The notes beneath the pieces are model-generated. The model ran no database searches. It was not told the origin of the DNA and saw nothing but the letters and a program-made list of their open reading frames with translations. A stretch of 20,139 nucleotides of DNA, from IMG/VR virus record IMGVR_UViG_3300025112_000253, positions 1 to 20,139 of that record. One strand, written 5' to 3'. A program made the translations under genes and the position numbers. Position 1 is the first letter of the stretch. Every line of letters begins with the position of its first letter. This stretch comes from a virus. This document shows, piece after piece, positions 1,890-10,626 of this stretch.

Positions 1890-3089
1890 TTAGAAGTCGA
1901 AATCGAGGTCATACGCCGTAAGTTTTGCTGATGTGGGGCCGGATCCTAGAAGCGCTGCTGCCTTAGACTCCCAGCTTGTGAGACCGGTGTGCCCGGAGAG
2001 CATAAATTCGACGTTTCCGGTCTGCTGCGAACTGGTCCAGCTACTCTTGGCGCCATTGACGGCACTATTGATATAGTTATAATTCGCAGCCTCTTTGGGG
2101 CTCAGCTTGCCGGTCGACATCTTCTCTTTCATCTTTGCAAGGAACTCCAAATCCTTTGCAAGACGACTAACGGCACCAGGGATCGCTTTTCCATACCGAG
2201 CTTGGGCGTCAAGGGATGCCTGGCTGGGGAGGTCCTCAGCTTCTTCGACCTTTGGGCGATGCCGCGCAGCAATCTCTTCTTTGACTTTGACTGCGGCAAC
2301 CTCAGCATCTGCATCGCTCATTAACGTAACGCCGTAAGGAAAGACACCATCATTAAAATCGGTTTTATTCCATCCCAATCTTTTTTCATGAATAACCGCA
2401 AAATCCACATTAAGTTGAATAAGGCCAGGGAGGACTGTATTACCATCTTTCGCAAAGGTGGTTACGTCTGAATTTTCCAGATTGTGGTTGACCGTAAGAC
2501 TTGTGATAACACCAAGAAGACCATGGGCAGCGTCCGGGGTTGATTTATAGGAGCCGTAACTTGCTGCTGAGGCTTTACTCGTTGCATCTTTGGCTTCTCC
2601 AGTGGTAGCATCGCCGGCGGCCTGGGTGCCAGCTTTCGCTATAAGATTCATAACCTTCATTCTAACATATGGGCCCTGGGATATGGTCTTGTGGAGGCCA
2701 ACTGGCGTGTAGTTTGGGTACAAAAACTGTTCGAGCATAGAGACTCTGCCTAGGTTATCGTATGCCTCGCTAAAAGACTCTGCCGGCACTTTTAAGCCAA
2801 GAGAGATTCTTCGCGTTGTTTGTCTAAATAGACGACTGGGGTCTGTTCTACCAAAAATATTCTCTTCTGTCCAATCACAATTATACGTCTCTGTCAAAGA
2901 GGAAATAAATGCTTTAAAAAATACACTTTTGCCAGATTGCTCATGTCTAAAAGAAGCAACCATTGCATGGCCATCGGTCGAAGCAATCGAATCCGACGGG
3001 GAAACAAAAGTAGTCCTGCCGGCTTCCTCTCTCGAATCTTTGTTTTTGTGTACGTTAAAGTATCCCGAGGGTGGGGTTTCTGATGCCAT
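1890..3089 (-). CDS. Baseplate/tail-tube initiator protein, gp48/gp54-like (paralog 1)
   Basis: This 399-residue protein is the upstream member of a tandem paralogous pair. It shares about the first 170 residues and the middle DVTTFAKDGNTVLPGLI block with the 734-1861 product. It has an extra Ala/Thr/Lys-rich insert (near AGDATTGEAKDATSKASAAS) between the KVMNLIAK segment and the SYKSTPD segment, and a different C-terminus ending AYDLDFDF. Pattern and position directly after the tape measure gene fit a T4 gp48/gp54-type tube cap or initiator, on which the tail tube polymerises. The ATG at 3089 lies two bases after the tape-measure stop, and its GGGAGAGGG ribosome-binding site is inside the end of that gene, so translation is probably coupled. 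The role is inferred from family pattern and context. Confidence 0.55.
   Translation of the reverse strand: MASETPPSGYFNVHKNKDSREEAGRTTFVSPSDSIASTDGHAMVASFRHEQSGKSVFFKAFISSLTETYNCDWTEENIFGRTDPSRLFRQTTRRISLGLKVPAESFSEAYDNLGRVSMLEQFLYPNYTPVGLHKTISQGPYVRMKVMNLIAKAGTQAAGDATTGEAKDATSKASAASYGSYKSTPDAAHGLLGVITSLTVNHNLENSDVTTFAKDGNTVLPGLIQLNVDFAVIHEKRLGWNKTDFNDGVFPYGVTLMSDADAEVAAVKVKEEIAARHRPKVEEAEDLPSQASLDAQARYGKAIPGAVSRLAKDLEFLAKMKEKMSTGKLSPKEAANYNYINSAVNGAKSSWTSSQQTGNVEFMLSGHTGLTSWESKAAALLGSGPTSAKLTAYDLDFDF
2443..2481. repeat. 39-bp block identical to 1266-1304 (between paralogs)
   Basis: Second copy of the 39-base identical block shared by the two paralogous genes. Confidence 0.8.
2782..2813. 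repeat. 32-bp block identical to 1557-1588 (between paralogs)
   Basis: Second copy of the 32-base identical block shared by the two paralogous genes. Confidence 0.8.
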
Positions 3090-3091
3090 TT

Positions 3092-5758
3092 TTACGTCCC
3101 TCTCCCTGCCATGGCATCACCGGCCAGCTTACCGAAGCGCTGGTCTACAAACTTTCCGACCTTCTTGCCATCCATCATAACAACTCCCTCAACATTAACA
3201 TTAACTTCTCCTGATGCACCTCCACGGCCCGGGGCGCCGCCGGCGACGGCACTTTTGACTGCCGCGGCAGTCGCTTTAGTGCCAGCGGTTGCGCCGGCGA
3301 GGGCTGCCGCGGTCATCGTGGCGGTTAGTGCTATCGCCTTGGTGGTGGGCAGCTTTTCTATCTCGTCATTAATCTTTCCGAAGCCCAGTGCAATTTTCGC
3401 AAGCTTGGTAACTTCAAACTCTGCCAGTGAGGAAAAGAATATCGCATAATTCTCAAGTACGTCAGTGGGGGCGAGTGCCAAAGCCAAGGCCAAACCAAAC
3501 ATAGCTGTGGTAAGGATAGAAAGAGCTATTGCGGCTATTACGAGACCTGGGGAAAGATAGGCCAGGGTACCAATGAATACTGCGAAACCTATCATCTTTT
3601 CTAGTTCTATGGCTTTAAACATCACTGCCAGTCCCTTTGCCATCTCGCCGATGCCCAGAGCAGCTATTGCAACGCCGGCGCCGATCAAAAAGATTGCGGC
3701 GCCAAGAGGCAGTAGACCTGCTGCTGCGGCCATTGCGGCCGCCGACATTGTCGCCAATATGTAAACCATAGCGACTACGGCGGCCAGCACCAGAAAGATT
3801 CCGAGTGCAGCCCAGGGGGCATTATCGCCTACGTCAGCAAAGGCCGTAACTAGATATGAAAGCCCAACAGCGGCCATGGCGATGCCGGCGCCTATCAGAA
3901 GGATGGCGCCTCCCAGCGCTAAAATTCCCTTCCAGCTATCAGTCGCCGCTTCTCCTACGTTTTTAATACCTTCGGCCAAAGACTCTGAAGCTGACTCGCT
4001 TTCTTCGCTGGCGTCGTTGAGGGCCTCCTGGCCCTCGGCGGCCCCGAAGAGTCCTGTTGCAAAATCCCTTATTTTCCCGACCATTTCTCCCAGGGCGCCG
4101 GCGGCATTCAGCGCTTTCCATACGATCCACGCGCTGACAAACAAATACCAGTACTCTGTGGCTGAAATGATGACTTTTCCAATTGTCACCATGGCATCCG
4201 CGAAAGCCCTCAAGCTATCTTTAATATCTGCTTTATCTGCGTCCGAAAGGCCCCTAACCCACTCTTGAAGCTCTCCGACCACATCCGACATGACTGGAAC
4301 GAGATCCGCCATAAGAGTCTTAAATTGTTCAGTCATGCTTTGAATATCTTTCGTGCGTTTTGCAAGCTCTTTGTATTCGTCTGAAGATTTTTGTGTCGCG
4401 CCCTCTAAGTTACTCATATCGCCAGAAAGAACCGCCGCTAAGTCACTTACATCACTTAGGCCGAGAGCATCTGTATAGAATTTTCTCTGATAATATGACA
4501 TGTTATCAAAAGTAAGACCAGTATCTAAGATGGAGTCTCGAATCATGCCAAAGCGCTCTGCCGGGTCAGTTGCCATCATCAAGTCCATCGCGTTGACAAA
4601 GTTGCCGCCTAGGGCTGCGTTTAGCTTGCCGGCTTGCTCGGCGGCGCCTTCAAATGTATCAAACTTATCTGTAATGGCGAGAATCTTTTTCATTTCTAGA
4701 CCGGTTGTCTTGGAAACAATAGCCAGGTCCTTAAAGGCTCGAATACCCTCACTTCCCATTTTCGCTAGTCCATCGCCCATGGCGGCAAAGTCTGCGCCTA
4801 ATTCCGACGGTATAACGCCGATCACATTGGCAAAGTCTGCAATGTCACGGCCGGCTGCTGCCGCGGCAGGGCCCGTTAATCCAAAAGCCTTGGTGCTTGT
4901 TTGCATGGACTTTGCGAAGTCTTCGTTCTTAATGCCAACCTCAGCTAGCAATGCGCCGGTTTTTGCAATTTCGTCTTGCGCAGACGAATTAAGCATTGTA
5001 AAGTCAGTGTATGTGCTCTTTAGCGCTGTCATGGCAGCACTCATTTCTTTCAATTCAACGCCATATAAACGAGTTGCCTCATAGTTGGCGGTCATTTGCT
5101 TCGCCATCTTATCACTGGCGCCGGCGGTGCGCTTGAATGCGCTTTCTGCCTCATCAACCTGAATGGCTAGATTAATCAACGAGTTAACGAAGGATTTAAG
5201 AAGACCTAAACCTAAACTTTTAGCAAATTCAATCGCGCCGGCGGTACCGCCTCGGAATGCCTTTGCAACATTCTTTAGGTTGTCTGTGTTAAGGACGCTG
5301 TGCTTGCCATATGCCCCAAGTACGCCGCCCATGGCATCGCCTAGGCCTTTGGCGGCTTCGATACCCTCTTTGATGGCTTGGGTGGAGTTGGTTAGTTTCA
5401 GGAGTGTTTCTTCTTGTACAGCTAGGTTGGCCTGGGCAACTTTAAGCCTCTCTAAGGCCGCCTCGCCCGCCGGGCCGCCAAGGGCTACTTCTTTTTCTAA
5501 GTCTTTTATACGCGACTTTTCATATTCAAGGAGGGACTGTTGTTGAAGGATCTGTGCGTCCATAGAATCGCCCAAAGTCAGATATCTTTGGTGTTGAGCT
5601 TCGAGTTCCGCGGTGGTTTGCTTGTTCAGGCCGAGGAATGACTCGGCAGCTTTCGTCAGTTTGTCCGTCTCCGCCGTCTGTTCTTTGGTCTTTTTGACCT
5701 GTTTCTCTTTCTCTGCAGTTATATCCTGCTGATCTTTTAAGTCTTTCTCGTCAGCCAT
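3092..5758 (-). CDS. Tail tape measure protein (gp29 functional equivalent)
   Basis: The 888-residue protein has the usual tape-measure architecture. A charged, Gln/Glu/Lys-rich, probably coiled-coil N-terminus (about 1-125) is followed by long Ala-rich helical segments. A strongly hydrophobic region lies near 538-770, with several membrane-like helices (around 612-640, 655-710 and 721-768). The Gly/Ala-rich C-terminus ends MAGRGT. Tape measures fill the tail tube lumen, set tail length and often reach the host membrane on ejection, which fits the hydrophobic helices. It is longer than T4 gp29 (590 residues), predicting a longer tail. It heads its own transcription unit, with a strong terminator and an ACTATTTA motif just upstream. 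The ATG at 5758 follows a CGAGGAC site. It sits after the putative chaperone ORFs, the standard place for a tape measure. Confidence 0.85.
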   Translation of the reverse strand: MADEKDLKDQQDITAEKEKQVKKTKEQTAETDKLTKAAESFLGLNKQTTAELEAQHQRYLTLGDSMDAQILQQQSLLEYEKSRIKDLEKEVALGGPAGEAALERLKVAQANLAVQEETLLKLTNSTQAIKEGIEAAKGLGDAMGGVLGAYGKHSVLNTDNLKNVAKAFRGGTAGAIEFAKSLGLGLLKSFVNSLINLAIQVDEAESAFKRTAGASDKMAKQMTANYEATRLYGVELKEMSAAMTALKSTYTDFTMLNSSAQDEIAKTGALLAEVGIKNEDFAKSMQTSTKAFGLTGPAAAAAGRDIADFANVIGVIPSELGADFAAMGDGLAKMGSEGIRAFKDLAIVSKTTGLEMKKILAITDKFDTFEGAAEQAGKLNAALGGNFVNAMDLMMATDPAERFGMIRDSILDTGLTFDNMSYYQRKFYTDALGLSDVSDLAAVLSGDMSNLEGATQKSSDEYKELAKRTKDIQSMTEQFKTLMADLVPVMSDVVGELQEWVRGLSDADKADIKDSLRAFADAMVTIGKVIISATEYWYLFVSAWIVWKALNAAGALGEMVGKIRDFATGLFGAAEGQEALNDASEESESASESLAEGIKNVGEAATDSWKGILALGGAILLIGAGIAMAAVGLSYLVTAFADVGDNAPWAALGIFLVLAAVVAMVYILATMSAAAMAAAAGLLPLGAAIFLIGAGVAIAALGIGEMAKGLAVMFKAIELEKMIGFAVFIGTLAYLSPGLVIAAIALSILTTAMFGLALALALAPTDVLENYAIFFSSLAEFEVTKLAKIALGFGKINDEIEKLPTTKAIALTATMTAAALAGATAGTKATAAAVKSAVAGGAPGRGGASGEVNVNVEGVVMMDGKKVGKFVDQRFGKLAGDAMAGRGT

Positions 5759-5786: not shown

Positions 5787-5791
5787 TTTAT

Positions 5792-5822
5792 AAAAAAAAA
5801 GACAAGAACTAGTCTTGTCTTT
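5792..5822 (-). terminator. Rho-independent terminator after the chaperone ORF
   Basis: A perfect 10-bp stem (5798-5807 with 5813-5822) and a 5-base loop overlap the TAA stop of the preceding ORF. On the coding strand a run of Ts follows the stem at once. It separates the tube/chaperone unit from the tape-measure unit. Confidence 0.85.
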
Positions 5823-6132
5823 ACTTCTTTGGTGCCTGGGCGCGCGGATCCGGGTTATTGTGTGCTGTGAGTGTTTGTGATTTGCCGCCGCCCTTCGAAG
5901 CCTGCTCCATCGCTTCGTTTTCTTGTTCTATTTGCTGAATTAGCCTTTGAGTAAACCATGTTCTAAGACCAACGGGCAAATTGTAAGCTTCTGTGAATGA
6001 CCACCCCCCGGAATATTTTAGAAAGAAAAACTGCTCATAGATGTTTTCCATGTAATCATCGGTCAGGCCAAAAAAACTCCGCTCCCAGCGGTACCTCCAT
6101 GTCCTGTGAGTATTCGCACTCGGGGCACTCAA
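5821..6132 (-). CDS. Short ORF overlapping the gp26-like gene; probable frameshift extension (tail assembly chaperone part)
   Basis: This frame overlaps the end of the gp26-like gene by 77 bases. The farthest start, TTG at 6132, gives 103 residues, but the first 21 are an out-of-frame copy of gp26-like coding and no ribosome-binding site supports that start. The only internal ATG candidate (6051, MENIYEQ) also lacks a GGAG-type site, unlike the other genes here. The likely expressed part is the 82 residues from GLTDDYMENIYE onwards, made by a +1 ribosomal frameshift at the T7 run (6070-6076) and giving a 365-residue fusion. It contains YEQFFFLKYSGGW and LPVGLRTWFTQRLIQQIEQE and has a polar C-terminus. 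Its place between tube and tape measure is that of the G/GT-type tail chaperones. The frameshift is inferred, not shown. Confidence 0.6.
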   Translation of the reverse strand: MSAPSANTHRTWRYRWERSFFGLTDDYMENIYEQFFFLKYSGGWSFTEAYNLPVGLRTWFTQRLIQQIEQENEAMEQASKGGGKSQTLTAHNNPDPRAQAPKK

Positions 6133-6919
6133 AATATTGTTTAAGATCTATGTTCGGTGCTGCTAGCTTATAGGCCATGCGCAGATGTCGAGAATCCATT
6201 GATGGAATATTATTAATAACGTAGTTTCTTGCTTCGGCACTATCGTCTTCATTTACCGCAACGAGTAGGTTAGCCAACTGATTGGTTACATTGTGTTCTT
6301 CACCCTTTCTTTTACGGGCGTTGGTAACAGAAGAAGCAAGATTCTTTTCATCGTGACCAACAAGAAGCCTAAAACGAACGTCTATGGATGTTTTAGGCAA
6401 CGTAGTTGTAAACGTGCCATCTCCATGATCCACCAACTCAAGCTGGTGCGCATCTTCTCCTCTATAAACATTTGCCTCTTTTAAGTCAAATGTATAACGA
6501 TTTATTTCGCCGCAACCTGGACAAGTTACATTTGTTGAATAATCGCTGCCGTATCCAGAAGACCTAATCGCAATAATAATTGCGTTTCTATCTCCAACAA
6601 GCAATGTATTTGGGTCAATGCTTTTATCTACAATAATGCTCTCGATAACTCTATCCAAAGCAACGCCTTTCTTAAGAAGGGTTCTGGATGTCAAAATATC
6701 CTCTTCTCTAGCGGTCATTTGCTTAAGTTCAATACAGTCTTTGTCGTGTAGCGGATGTCCTTCTGGATAAAACCTTCCTCCTGATGGAAGATCGACAAAC
6801 TCTGTGGGTACGACGAATGCTAACGCCATACCACCTTTGTTATCACCTTGCATTACGTGTTGGGGGACCGGACTTGATGTGGTCTTTTTCGCTCCAACGC
6901 GACTTTTATTTCTTGACAA
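6056..6919 (-). CDS. 26: gp26-like baseplate hub / tail assembly chaperone protein with two CxxC pairs
   Basis: The 287-residue protein has features of the T4 gp26 family: a VDLPSGGRFYPEGHPL segment near residues 42-57, then KQMTAREEDIL. Two Cys pairs follow, CPGC (133-136) and CPEC (265-268), spaced like a zinc ribbon. T4 gp26 acts in baseplate hub assembly. The gene sits between tube and tape measure, where other tailed phages place frameshifting tail chaperones. Its end contains GAG TTT TTT TGG and, just before, a GGGAGCGGAG sequence. Four codons after the T run comes TGA. Initiation is at TTG (6919) with an AGAGGTG site 5 to 7 bases upstream; a short inverted repeat brackets that site. 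It is somewhat longer than T4 gp26 (208 residues). Family call is fairly sure; the chaperone role is inferred. Confidence 0.7.
   Translation of the reverse strand: MSRNKSRVGAKKTTSSPVPQHVMQGDNKGGMALAFVVPTEFVDLPSGGRFYPEGHPLHDKDCIELKQMTAREEDILTSRTLLKKGVALDRVIESIIVDKSIDPNTLLVGDRNAIIIAIRSSGYGSDYSTNVTCPGCGEINRYTFDLKEANVYRGEDAHQLELVDHGDGTFTTTLPKTSIDVRFRLLVGHDEKNLASSVTNARKRKGEEHNVTNQLANLLVAVNEDDSAEARNYVINNIPSMDSRHLRMAYKLAAPNIDLKQYFECPECEYSQDMEVPLGAEFFWPDR
6068..6086 (-). other. Candidate +1 programmed ribosomal frameshift site
   Basis: On the coding strand the gp26-like frame reads GAG TTT TTT TGG. Slipping +1 on the second TTT re-pairs perfectly (TTT to TTT) and moves the ribosome into the overlapping ORF at GGC CTG ACC. 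A GGGAGCGGAG sequence (6077-6086) ends three bases before that second TTT, the same spacing as the stimulatory SD-like element of the bacterial prfB +1 site. The overlapping ORF has no start site of its own. An indel error in the T7 run would be the main alternative. Confidence 0.5.
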
Positions 6920-6945: not shown

Positions 6946-7536
6946 TTATGCTGTGGTCACTTTATCGAAGAACGTCGTTGCGGTGGATGACCCCGCACCC
7001 ACGTTGGCCAACTCAACGGTAGCCCAGTCGTACTTTAAAGTGACCGAAATTTCTGATAAATCATCTTCTCCATACGCCATATCGCCGTATTTAACTTCTG
7101 TCATAAAGGAGTTATTAAGAGTCCATGTCTCGACCGCAGCGCCATCACCATCATACTGAATGATCTTCACTTGCCCTAGGGCGCCTGCTGCGGATGATTT
7201 GGATATGGTGGCCAGCTTGTCCGAAGCCGCCGGCGGCGCATAACCAGATGCCTGCATAATATTAGAAAAGGTTGCGGCTGCGTCTGGGTTAACGGGGTCG
7301 ACCAGTGTCATGACCACATCATTCCAAGTAATCGAGCCGGGATAATAAAATGTATGGTTTAAATACTTGTGTTCTGCGGCTGCAATGGTGAAGGATGGCT
7401 TTGACACAGTCTTTGCATACCAAAGTAGGGTATCAGTGCTCAAGCCAGTCATCTGCACCTGGAATCTAAATTTTCTTTTTGGGTCCTTAAGACCCGTGGT
7501 CGACGTGTCTCCGAAATCGGTTGTCCAGAATGACAT
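6946..7536 (-). CDS. 19: Tail tube protein (gp19-like)
   Basis: The 196-residue protein has the typical contractile-tail tube pattern: DPKRKFRFQVQM at about 18-29, WYAKTVSKPSF near 39-49, HTFYYPGSITWNDVVMTLVDP near 61-81, and a C-terminal EISVTLKYDWA. It polymerises into the inner tube through which DNA passes, inside the sheath. It is slightly longer than T4 gp19 (163 residues). The ATG at 7536 has a GGAG site about 9 bases upstream and an ACTATTTA motif 34 bases upstream. No terminator is visible between the sheath gene and this one, so it can be made both by readthrough from the sheath message and from its own signal, fitting the need for many copies. It is followed after 26 bases by the gp26-like gene. 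Confidence 0.88.
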   Translation of the reverse strand: MSFWTTDFGDTSTTGLKDPKRKFRFQVQMTGLSTDTLLWYAKTVSKPSFTIAAAEHKYLNHTFYYPGSITWNDVVMTLVDPVNPDAAATFSNIMQASGYAPPAASDKLATISKSSAAGALGQVKIIQYDGDGAAVETWTLNNSFMTEVKYGDMAYGEDDLSEISVTLKYDWATVELANVGAGSSTATTFFDKVTTA

Positions 7537-7593: not shown

Positions 7594-10500
7594 TTAATCA
7601 TTAAATCCTACGCCAGTTCGGGTAACAACGAAGTCAAGCGCAATAAATTCAATTGCTCGCGCCGGCTGTATCTTAATCTTGGCGTATAGGATATTACTAT
7701 CAATGAGCCAGTCTTGATCTGTTTGGCCAGTGACTGCAAGAAGCTCCGGCGGAATATCAGCATCACTCTGCACGGCTAGCTCGTAGTTTGTGATACCATG
7801 TTGTGTCAGAATATTCGACAAGAATGGATCTACTAGGCCTCGGAAGTTATTCCATGTGGCCTCTACGTTCTGCTCGAACAGAACTTGGTTAGCAAGAACT
7901 GCAATCGACTTCTTAACATAGTTCATGAGCCTTCTGACATTAATTCTATCTAAGGCTGATGATTCGCCCTGTAGTGTCTTCTGGCCAAAGACTACAACTC
8001 CGCTTCCCGGGAAGGAGGCAATCGGGTTGATGTCGGCCGCATAAAGGGTATCTCTATCATCAGACGTCAATCTTTCACTGACATTCACAACTGGGATATT
8101 GGCCGCGCCCTCCGTAAGGCCGCCGCGGTTAAAGCCAGCTGGAGCGAACCAAAGCTTTGTTCTTTTCTCTGAACTAGCTATGACACCTACCATGGCTACA
8201 GAAGGCGGCACCCACACAAGCTGTCCTGTGTTAGCATCGCGGGTTTGAACCCATGGATAAAATGTGCAACCGTAGCTACTATTCAGTGGTGTGCCGTCGG
8301 CTCTGTTGTTTGCGACTGCAACTGGCGTTGTTCCAACTCGGCTTGACTTATCTGCATAATAGACTTCGTGTGTTGGGATATAAACGCTTGCTAGGTCAAC
8401 TATGCCCAACGAATCGCCGCGGTTTGTGCACACATTAGTAATCTTGTTATTTAAGCCAGTATTTGTGAGACCTGGGGCCAACAACATATTCATATCGACA
8501 GATTCAGGATCTCTGGTTAGGGCGATGGCCTTGTTCCACGTATAATAAATGGAACTGCCTGCTTCAGTGCTGCTACCAATTCCATTGTTATACATCGGAT
8601 CCGGCACACGAATATTAAAGCCGTCGGAGCCGCCCCAGAAGGGAACAGTGAACTTGTCATAGCCGGCGTCTAGAAGGCTCTTATAAGTATTGGAACCTGT
8701 GGCTGTATAGCTTGTGCCGTCCACTCTGGAGCCGGATCTATGGAAATAGTTACTGCCGCTGGTTGCGACACTGCTGTTAACAATGTCATCCAGTGTAAAG
8801 ATATATGCATATGAATCGATGCCGGTGATCTCGCTTCCGACCGGGTTATCTGCGAAGCCCTTATAAAGCAGTCTATGCACATCAGCGCAACTTTGGTCAT
8901 GACGCGTACTAGTGGCTGTCCGAGTGGTTTGCATTCCAAAGTAGGCGCGTGTTGGCTGGCTTAAGCCGCCATCAGAGGCAGAGTTACGAATTCTCACGGA
9001 CGGGAACTTCATCGAGCATGTGAGGTTAATTGAGGCACCTTCACCCCAAGCTATGGCGGACGAAAGCGGCGATTGTGCCACTGCCTTAAGACCTGTGTCT
9101 GGCAAATATCCATCCACAATGATAAACTTATTGCCCAGGGTGGTCCCATCCGAGCCAGTGTTCTGAGTAAATGAACCAGAGAACGTCACGTCTGAATATT
9201 TCGGAGGACCGAAATATCCCCATGGCAGAAGCGTCTCAAGTCCGCCTGCGCCGGCATCAATACTATCATCCATCTGCACCCTAATGTACTTGGAAATATT
9301 GGGGTACCCGCCCGGAATTTTCGCTACCAATCTCGGGTAAGTGTGGGTGGTCGTGTCCCACGTCCACTCCTGGGTACCAATTTGGCGTGCAATATAGTTG
9401 GGAGAGGTTGGATTGAGGGTAAGATTATCGAATCTTTCTACGACCTGTACATCGTTGTCTGTATCACCAAACTTTCTGACTACAAGAGAAAATGTTCCGT
9501 AAGGGGAGGCCGTAGACTGTGATTGCTTAAGTCTTTCAATTGAGATCTTAAGGTTTCTCTGTGTCCACTCACCATGACCGCGGTCGATAATGCGGAAAAG
9601 TCTTTGCGAGTCTTCAGCCTTAAAGCTAGTTGCGCTACCCTGGTCCTGGCCAACGATCCAGCTAGTTCGAGCTGTCGAACCTGCCGTCAATGCGGCCTGG
9701 CCGAGCATGTTTGCGGGAGTTTCATTGTCGCTTGATCCAGTTAGCTGAAGGCCGGCGATCACACCAACAAGATTGCCACTTGTCAAAGACGCATCTCTTA
9801 GCTCCTGCTCATAAGTCTCTCCTAACCAATAATCTCTTTCGGATGTGGAGGGGTAAAAGTTGCCGCCAACCCTCAATTGTGGGTTAGTGTTAAACTTCTT
9901 TCTAATGAAATCTGCACTAGTATCATCGAGGTTAAAGGCAATCGTTTCGCCGCGGCCGTTCGAGCCACTGATGACAACCTTAAACCTACCATTGTCATCA
10001 GAGTTAATCAAAGTGGCGGATCCGGTTATATCGGCGGGGTCTGTGGCGCTAGATGTTCCAAAAAGACGTCCTCTAAGAGAAATTGAACCGCCATCCAAGT
10101 ACCATACGGCAGCTAACCGGAAGGAGTTGGAGCCTGTAAATGCGAATTCGATTGTCTCCGCATCGAATGAGGCCGAAGGAGCTACCCAAAGACCAATGGC
10201 GCCGCCGCGCGTGCCTTCATTTGCAGTTAATAGGTTGTCGGTTTTCCAACCAGCCTGCGGGTCATCTCCAGAATCTTTCTCACCGTAGTACTCTTCTCCC
10301 AAAACTCTAATGTATGTTAGTGGGGCTATATTGGCTTTTAAGTATGCTTTGGCTGCGTAGGTACCATACATTGGTGACTGGCCGCTGTTTCCAGCACGGT
10401 AAACATCACCACCCTGGAAGCCTGGGACCGTGTCACCGAAATTAGCAACAAATTGTTCCCATGATTTTACTTTAATTGGTACCATGGCCGGCCCTTTCTT

Positions 10501-10626
10501 GGCGCGGCCGATTATTACAGCGCCTATAGCGTCTGCTGATGCCGGCATCTGAGAATTATCTGTCTCGATAACTTGAACGCCTGGCGCGGTGTCACCGCTC
10601 ATGAATCTAAAGCTGCTTATGCCCAT
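7594..10626 (-). CDS. 18: Tail sheath protein (gp18-like), unusually long
   Basis: The 1010-residue protein has sheath hallmarks at both ends. Near the N-terminus are SGDTAPGVQVIETD, IGAVIIGRAKKGPA and a SWEQFVANFGD segment with AAKAYLKA following. Near the C-terminus are INPIASFPGSGVVVFGQKTL, RINVRRLMNYVKKSI, FEQNVEATWNNFRG and a final segment containing ARAIEFIALDFVVTRTG. These ends form the conserved sheath core that contracts to drive the tube through the host envelope. T4 gp18 has 659 residues, so about 350 extra residues sit in the middle (roughly 130-800), which is Gly/Ser/Asn-rich and presumably forms surface domains. The ATG at 10626 has an AAGGAACC site. An ACTATTTA motif lies 69 bases upstream, after a probable terminator. 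No terminator is seen before the tube gene. Confidence 0.92.
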   Translation of the reverse strand: MGISSFRFMSGDTAPGVQVIETDNSQMPASADAIGAVIIGRAKKGPAMVPIKVKSWEQFVANFGDTVPGFQGGDVYRAGNSGQSPMYGTYAAKAYLKANIAPLTYIRVLGEEYYGEKDSGDDPQAGWKTDNLLTANEGTRGGAIGLWVAPSASFDAETIEFAFTGSNSFRLAAVWYLDGGSISLRGRLFGTSSATDPADITGSATLINSDDNGRFKVVISGSNGRGETIAFNLDDTSADFIRKKFNTNPQLRVGGNFYPSTSERDYWLGETYEQELRDASLTSGNLVGVIAGLQLTGSSDNETPANMLGQAALTAGSTARTSWIVGQDQGSATSFKAEDSQRLFRIIDRGHGEWTQRNLKISIERLKQSQSTASPYGTFSLVVRKFGDTDNDVQVVERFDNLTLNPTSPNYIARQIGTQEWTWDTTTHTYPRLVAKIPGGYPNISKYIRVQMDDSIDAGAGGLETLLPWGYFGPPKYSDVTFSGSFTQNTGSDGTTLGNKFIIVDGYLPDTGLKAVAQSPLSSAIAWGEGASINLTCSMKFPSVRIRNSASDGGLSQPTRAYFGMQTTRTATSTRHDQSCADVHRLLYKGFADNPVGSEITGIDSYAYIFTLDDIVNSSVATSGSNYFHRSGSRVDGTSYTATGSNTYKSLLDAGYDKFTVPFWGGSDGFNIRVPDPMYNNGIGSSTEAGSSIYYTWNKAIALTRDPESVDMNMLLAPGLTNTGLNNKITNVCTNRGDSLGIVDLASVYIPTHEVYYADKSSRVGTTPVAVANNRADGTPLNSSYGCTFYPWVQTRDANTGQLVWVPPSVAMVGVIASSEKRTKLWFAPAGFNRGGLTEGAANIPVVNVSERLTSDDRDTLYAADINPIASFPGSGVVVFGQKTLQGESSALDRINVRRLMNYVKKSIAVLANQVLFEQNVEATWNNFRGLVDPFLSNILTQHGITNYELAVQSDADIPPELLAVTGQTDQDWLIDSNILYAKIKIQPARAIEFIALDFVVTRTGVGFND

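Follow-up and report, generated by a model that had tools for sequence, protein, structure and literature searches.

Two overlapping open reading frames (ORF) lie between the tail tube and tape measure genes of the phage fragment studied here, and the question is whether they encode two independent proteins or are parts of one gene that is read in two ways. The window, i.e. the whole stretch of DNA analyzed, is a 20,139-base IMG/VR virus fragment whose tail module is placed on the minus strand. From sequence comparison, the reading favored is a programmed +1 ribosomal frameshift by which a single gene would yield a tail assembly chaperone in two forms, and a probability of about 0.88 is assigned to it.

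Tail module and overlapping reading frames

The features of the locus, all on the minus strand, are the following:

6946..7536, minus: tail tube gene, upstream neighbor (phrog_4542 tail tube, 2.9e-27)
6056..6919, minus: gp26-like gene that begins with TTG and encodes 287 aa; predicted tail assembly chaperone, 'G' form (PF12322 T4_baseplate, 1.6e-15; phrog_150 baseplate hub, 6.2e-16)
6093..6098, minus: conserved Shine-Dalgarno-like (SD-like) GGAGGT, probable stimulator (GGAGG kept at the synonymous level)
6079..6091, minus: RNA hairpin CCGCU-GGG-AGCGG bordering the slip site on its 5' side (comparative folding energy)
6068..6076, minus: slip site TTT TTT TGG (T7 at 6070-6076), the same in 85/89 relatives
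5821..6069, minus: 82-aa 'T' domain, GLTDDYMENIYEQFFFLKYSGGWSF..., downstream of the slip in the +1 frame (+1-frame pN/pS; profile match to short gp51)
5790..5822, minus: terminator-like (intrinsic) hairpin and T run separating the T ORF from the tape measure gene (MFE -10.1, z -3.2)
3092..5758, minus: tape measure-like gene, downstream neighbor (phrog_5493 tail length tape measure protein, 1.7e-4)

The gp26-like protein belongs to PF12322, with 57.9 bits against a curated cut-off of 24.5. The tube and tape measure genes flank the pair, as the first-pass annotation had placed it, and two overlapping ORF occupy this same interval in the window and in the relatives L015, L016 and L017. In the window (6919-6890, minus strand) and in the close relatives read (L001-L010), the start codon of the gp26-like gene is TTG instead of ATG; in the window, a GAGGTG is found directly 5' of this codon. 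Such a conserved weak start may limit the synthesis of the gp26-like protein.

The tail sheath (7594-10626, minus strand; 1010 aa) is unusually long and has a good match to known sheath families only in its C-terminal third. Beyond the tape measure gene, two adjacent ORF of 375 and 399 aa (734-1861 and 1890-3089, minus strand) are clear paralogs of each other (..PPGYFNVHK..REEAGRTTFVSPSDSIAS..), the second of them having no PHROG match.

The minus-strand gp26-like ORF (6919-6056) ends with ...GGA GCG GAG TTT TTT TGG CCT GAC CGA TGA, in which the T7 run spans 6076-6070 and the 0-frame stop 6058-6056. Relative to it, the second ORF (6132-5821) is shifted by +1. With a +1 step on the second TTT, reading resumes at GGC CTG ACC ..., and the 283 residues through the second Phe plus 82 give a fusion of 365 aa. 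Both the GAG TTT TTT TGG end and the 365-residue product proposed at first reading therefore agree with the sequence and the arithmetic. The second ORF's sole upstream start is a TTG, as had been observed; an in-frame ATG is also present, but past the 0-frame stop (7 nt after the start of the stop), and is ATA in L007, L008 and L011.

Conservation of the junction

Relatives were taken from viral contigs and from metagenome-assembled genome (MAG) contigs. The last 0-frame codons at 89 junctions, which come from related contigs and are thus not independent events, are TTT TTT TGG in 85, TTC TTT TGG in two (L051, L069) and TTT CTT TGG in two (L075, L087; also found in Flavobacterium phage immuto). 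The +1 frame is open beyond the 0-frame stop in all 89; a comparison of the T run and the overlap among relatives had been proposed as a check. Among the MAG-contig loci, T7 is at the same place in 10 of 11 and the remaining one has eight Ts. A sequencing error in T7, which the first-pass annotation wished to see checked, is ruled out by this recurrence in relatives from many metagenomes and MAG contigs. In one MAG contig (NHDW01000006) the same gp26 locus is present near both ends (L107 and L108); this contig is probably a circular phage genome with redundant ends that was binned with a bacterium.

The codons themselves are constrained. The second Phe codon is TTT in 81/81 sequences, compared with 274/354 (77%) in other conserved Phe columns. 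Pro285 is CCT in 71/71, in line with what the Leu codon of the +1 frame demands. After the slip, pN/pS against the relatives is 0.00-0.36 in the +1 frame and at least 0.84 in the other two frames. These values indicate that the +1 frame is under purifying selection and that, at the level of the alignments, the conservation of the slip site is far beyond chance.

The second ORF could still be a separate gene with its own start, translated by termination-reinitiation at the overlapping stop and giving no fusion. The ATG just after the stop in the window and the retention of some ATG, GTG or TTG in many relatives would suit such an arrangement, as would the pairs of cellular contractile systems, which overlap at GTGA/ATGA-type junctions with an SD just upstream (GGGGAATCGTGA) or at TGATG. 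On the other hand, 14 of 87 loci contain no ATG, GTG or TTG in the +1 frame ahead of a conserved YE..F motif, and consequently independent initiation cannot explain those loci. In some, a stop codon is placed just 5' of the T run, and the window's ATG is replaced by ATA, as in L007. Moreover, ahead of any possible start, conservation in the +1 frame already covers TTT TTT TGG and the subsequent Gly-Leu codons, and the conserved GGAGG is too distant from any start. Two separate genes without a fusion are therefore very unlikely. A programmed +1 frameshift in the window is very likely on the comparative evidence, and the slip proposed to join both ORF gains support from the invariant site, the selection on the +1 frame and the startless loci.

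The +1 frame could also be reached by a -2 ribosomal slip or by slippage of the RNA polymerase on T7. The length of the run suffices for either, the downstream product would be identical and a -2 slip is used in phage Mu (PMC5009743). The natural variants TTC TTT TGG and TTT CTT TGG, however, contain no long homopolymer and allow near-perfect re-pairing only for a +1 movement (UUU to UUU and CUU to UUU, respectively). They favor a +1 slip over both a -2 slip and transcript slippage. Other sites, among them TTTC and TTT CGT, are used by distant relatives. A -2 or transcriptional route is thus unlikely, though a little less so than separate genes.

Conserved elements upstream of the slip site

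The first-pass annotation had pointed to an SD-like GGGAGCGGAG at the spacing of the prfB site. This did not hold, since most of its bases form the 3' arm of a hairpin and the sequence differs among the relatives, where its counterparts are GCG GAC, ACG GAC, GTT GAC, CTC GAC and ACT ACC. A different motif, GGAGG, is found in 82 of 84 loci, against 25.8 expected (maximum 32) when codons are resampled synonymously to preserve the protein. Its start is at -22 in 66 loci; 13 others have it at -28 and three at -31. Given these varying distances and the varying codons in which it lies, the motif is kept while its position changes.

The hairpin is placed between GGAGG and the T run. The case for it is a comparative synonymous-resampling test on 84 loci: the summed MFE of the 24 nt is -487, against -221.5 +/- 13.7 in the resampled sequences. 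Control windows farther up the gp26-like gene deviate much less under the same resampling. The stems differ yet pair (CCGCU/AGCGG in the window, GGUUCC/GGAACC in L058, CGUUCC/GGAACG in L098 and CCGU/ACGG in L079). Folded as a single sequence, the window site is not exceptional relative to shuffles (z -0.77). The alignments thus identify GGAGG and the hairpin, not GGGAGCGGAG, as the conserved upstream elements, and both probably act as stimulators of the slip, a role that we infer.

A GC hairpin closely followed by U7 also resembles an intrinsic terminator, and the two could function as an attenuator that tunes transcription of the tape measure gene. Several relatives, however, have a C interrupting the U run with the frame arrangement unchanged, and a clear terminator is placed just 3' of the T ORF. 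Attenuation would furthermore leave the selected +1 ORF and the GGAGG unexplained, and it is the least probable of the alternatives considered here.

A parallel is known from T4: gene 25 is started with the help of an SD and a hairpin that lie in the last part of gene 26, the structure bringing a distant SD to working distance (PMC3014915). This split ribosome-binding site (L024:5850-5790, minus strand) is found at the position that corresponds to the SD and hairpin of the window's frameshift site, and it may be a re-used relic.

Proposed mechanism of the +1 slip

The comparative support assembled here covers the site, the frame, the selection on both products, the conservation of SD and hairpin and the gp26/gp51 homology; the efficiency of the slip, the role of the SD and hairpin and the binding partners are proposals built on it. 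The majority of the ribosomes would end at TGA and release the 287-aa gp26-like protein (G form). A fraction would slip at the moment when UGG occupies the A site and tRNA-Phe is paired with the second UUU. The tRNA-Phe would then re-pair one base forward on UUU, with GGC as the next codon. The hairpin would shorten the distance between the SD and the P site, and its refolding behind the ribosome could favor the forward movement. The slip would add the 82-aa helical T domain to give the 365-aa GT form. If lambda G/GT is taken as a guide, coating of the tape measure would fall to the G part and recruitment of tail tube subunits to the T domain.

Spread of the arrangement in distant phages

The arrangement is found well beyond the close relatives. 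Among phages with gp26 homologues, a +1 arrangement with other signals is present in Microcystis phage Mel-JY01, Flavobacterium phage immuto, SP-15, LIS04, RM378 and SagM-GXN1, and a -1 arrangement in XacN1, Atu_ph07 and LR756511. In P-SSM2, S-PM2, HTVC008M (a pelagiphage), phiM12 and KVP40, a T run closes gp26 (three have TTT TTC and two have TTT TTT), and the same type of domain is encoded by the -1 ORF. Further cyanophage-type contigs also use the -1 frame, with TTTTTTC at the site in 80/80 and GGAGG, GAGGG or AGAGG ending 9-10 nt 5' of it in 69/80. A TTTTTTC with an SD-like element 9-10 nt upstream is a standard -1 layout.

The GenBank records examined give the -1 ORF as a separate 'short gp51' or omit it. 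The short-gp51 profile aligns with the T domain of the window group (hhalign 92.8%, E 4e-7). A T-domain ORF of this kind is present in 594 phage records, and the annotations sampled show two unrelated-looking genes or miss the second. The gp51 of cyanophages and marine vibriophages is without about 200 N-terminal residues and, in cyanophages, has only about 20% of the usual length (Sullivan et al. 2010, PMC3037559). On the present reading, gp26 would supply the N-terminal residues missing from short gp51. A literature search limited to non-subscription journals found no earlier report of a gp26/gp51 frameshift. At first reading, T4-like gp26 had been set apart from the frameshifted pairs; this distinction is not maintained, as T4-like gp26 outside T4 itself has the same arrangement. 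The window is consequently no one-virus oddity.

T4 gp26 and gp51

The gp26 of T4 ends with ...KEFFELL, gene 25 is immediately next, and no second ORF was found after gene 26. Residues 1-201 of T4 gp51 match PF12322 and its C-terminus matches the short-gp51 profile (hhalign 84.7%, E 6.7e-6) as well as phrog_634. By these profile matches, T4 gp51 is a gp26-like PF12322 domain plus a T domain in one ORF, so that T4 carries the short (gp26) and long (gp51) forms as two genes. Matches to full-length gp51 are found in 1,334 records, mostly of enterobacterial T4-like phages. The domain make-up suggests that gp26 and gp51 behave as a lambda G/GT pair. According to a review (PMC5009743), frameshifting of the G-T type is common to most long-tailed phages, being widely conserved 'except T4', and the two-gene organization offers a reason for this exception.

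Probable chaperone identity

The AlphaFold model of the window's gp26-like protein (pLDDT 86) has as its best fold match in the PDB the HK97 tail assembly chaperone 2OB9 (probability 0.87, E 0.11, TM 0.21/0.49), a match between a model and a structure that is weak by score and pointed in its identity. The T domain is predicted as three helices, and its fold search returned weak matches only, to small myovirus proteins including P-HM1 Gp51. In the structural comparison proposed for both products, the gp26 part thus put the HK97 chaperone first, at a weak score. No credible match came from PDB sequence searches that used the profiles of gp26, the T domain and the cellular chaperones. The T domain was also compared with DUF6760 (PF20546), where it stayed below the cut-off, at 20.2-21.2 bits against 27 (E 3e-4 to 6e-4).

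Could the frameshift be real and gp26 nevertheless be a structural protein of the baseplate hub? Databases name PF12322 and phrog_150 'baseplate hub'. However, the T4 annotation gives gp51, with the same domain, as a chaperone or assembly protein, and the synteny between tube and tape measure, the frameshift architecture, a link to phrog_508 and the HK97 fold match favor a chaperone. A structural hub role is hence unlikely, although less so than any other alternative weighed here. The placement of gp26-like proteins among the tail assembly chaperones, proposed at the outset, is sustained by synteny, by distant frameshifts with other signals, by the domain make-up of T4 gp51, by profile homology to short proteins of cellular contractile systems and by 2OB9. 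Membership in the G/GT class is suggested by architecture and indirect homology.

Cellular contractile systems

In the loci of cellular contractile systems, a short protein precedes DUF6760, which is encoded in a different frame. One of the short proteins (L123) matches phrog_508 'tail assembly chaperone' (1.8e-7), and the profile of the short proteins aligns with the C-terminal half of gp26 (93%, E 3e-7). In most of these loci the second protein has its own start codon overlapping the stop, and hence the fusion is not universal. Searches with PF20546 in the phyla of L107, L105 and L115 likewise found cellular systems that are mostly coupled through the start codon.

Some cellular loci differ. 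In L122 (1440-1510) a GGGAAAG, the lambda-type heptamer, is found near the end of the short chaperone-like gene. DUF6760 comes next, in the -1 frame and lacking a start codon, so that this cellular injection system may use a -1 frameshift. In L135 and L143, the DUF6760 ORF overlapping the chaperone-like gene has no ATG, GTG or TTG, with CTG or ATA at the position of the GTGA of their relatives.

Taken jointly, the data make it probable that one tail assembly chaperone exists in the T4 superfamily as a G and a GT form, gp26 and gp51, respectively. The ancestor would have been one frameshifted gene, using -1 in cyanophages, pelagiphages and KVP40, and +1 in the marine lineage of the window by means of a relocatable SD and a slip-site hairpin. 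Two genes would have replaced it in T4-type phages, and cellular contractile injection systems would carry the pair mostly as coupled genes. The SD, hairpin and T7 would represent a new type of +1 stimulator.

Comparison with known systems

The cyanophage, pelagiphage and KVP40 gp26 and 'short gp51' share with the window the same two domains, the overlapping frames and a T-run site that ends gp26. They differ in the -1 shift, mostly at T TTT TTC with an SD 9-10 nt upstream. In T4, gp26 (baseplate hub) has the PF12322 first domain and gp51 (hub assembly protein) has this domain and the C-terminal one, whereas the short and long forms are two separate genes with no frameshift. If gp26/gp51 are a G/GT pair, the T4 exception vanishes and two poorly understood hub-assembly proteins of T4 gain a testable mechanism. 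It would also account for the shortness of cyanophage gp51. A two-gene form such as that argued for T4 is known in another phage lineage, likened to it by gene layout: the G-like and GT-like tail chaperones of phage 0305phi8-36 are two genes with no frameshift (PMC2147016). In the HF1-group haloviruses, which have an archaeal host, a +1 shift at a TTT-CGC site was proposed in the same interval between tube and tape measure genes (PMC7230728). HF1 showed no PF12322 match.

The lambda G/GT pair (Xu, Hendrix and Duda type) is likewise encoded between the tail tube and tape measure genes. Lambda uses a -1 shift at a bare G GGA AAG heptamer. The window has instead a +1 shift, an upstream SD and hairpin rather than a bare heptamer, and a first protein that is a two-zinc-ribbon gp26-type of 287 aa. 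The prfB +1 site resembles the window in the P-site codon before U, the +1 slip and the upstream SD-like element. A prfB-type site was nevertheless rejected for the window, given its A-site UGG and its conserved GGAGG at -22, -28 or -31. The slow A-site codon is UGG and not a stop, and the SD is at least 16 nt from the first UUU with a hairpin between them, whereas the SD of prfB is 3 nt from the shift codon. A +1 site with a conserved upstream SD and hairpin offers a natural system for the study of forward frameshifting.
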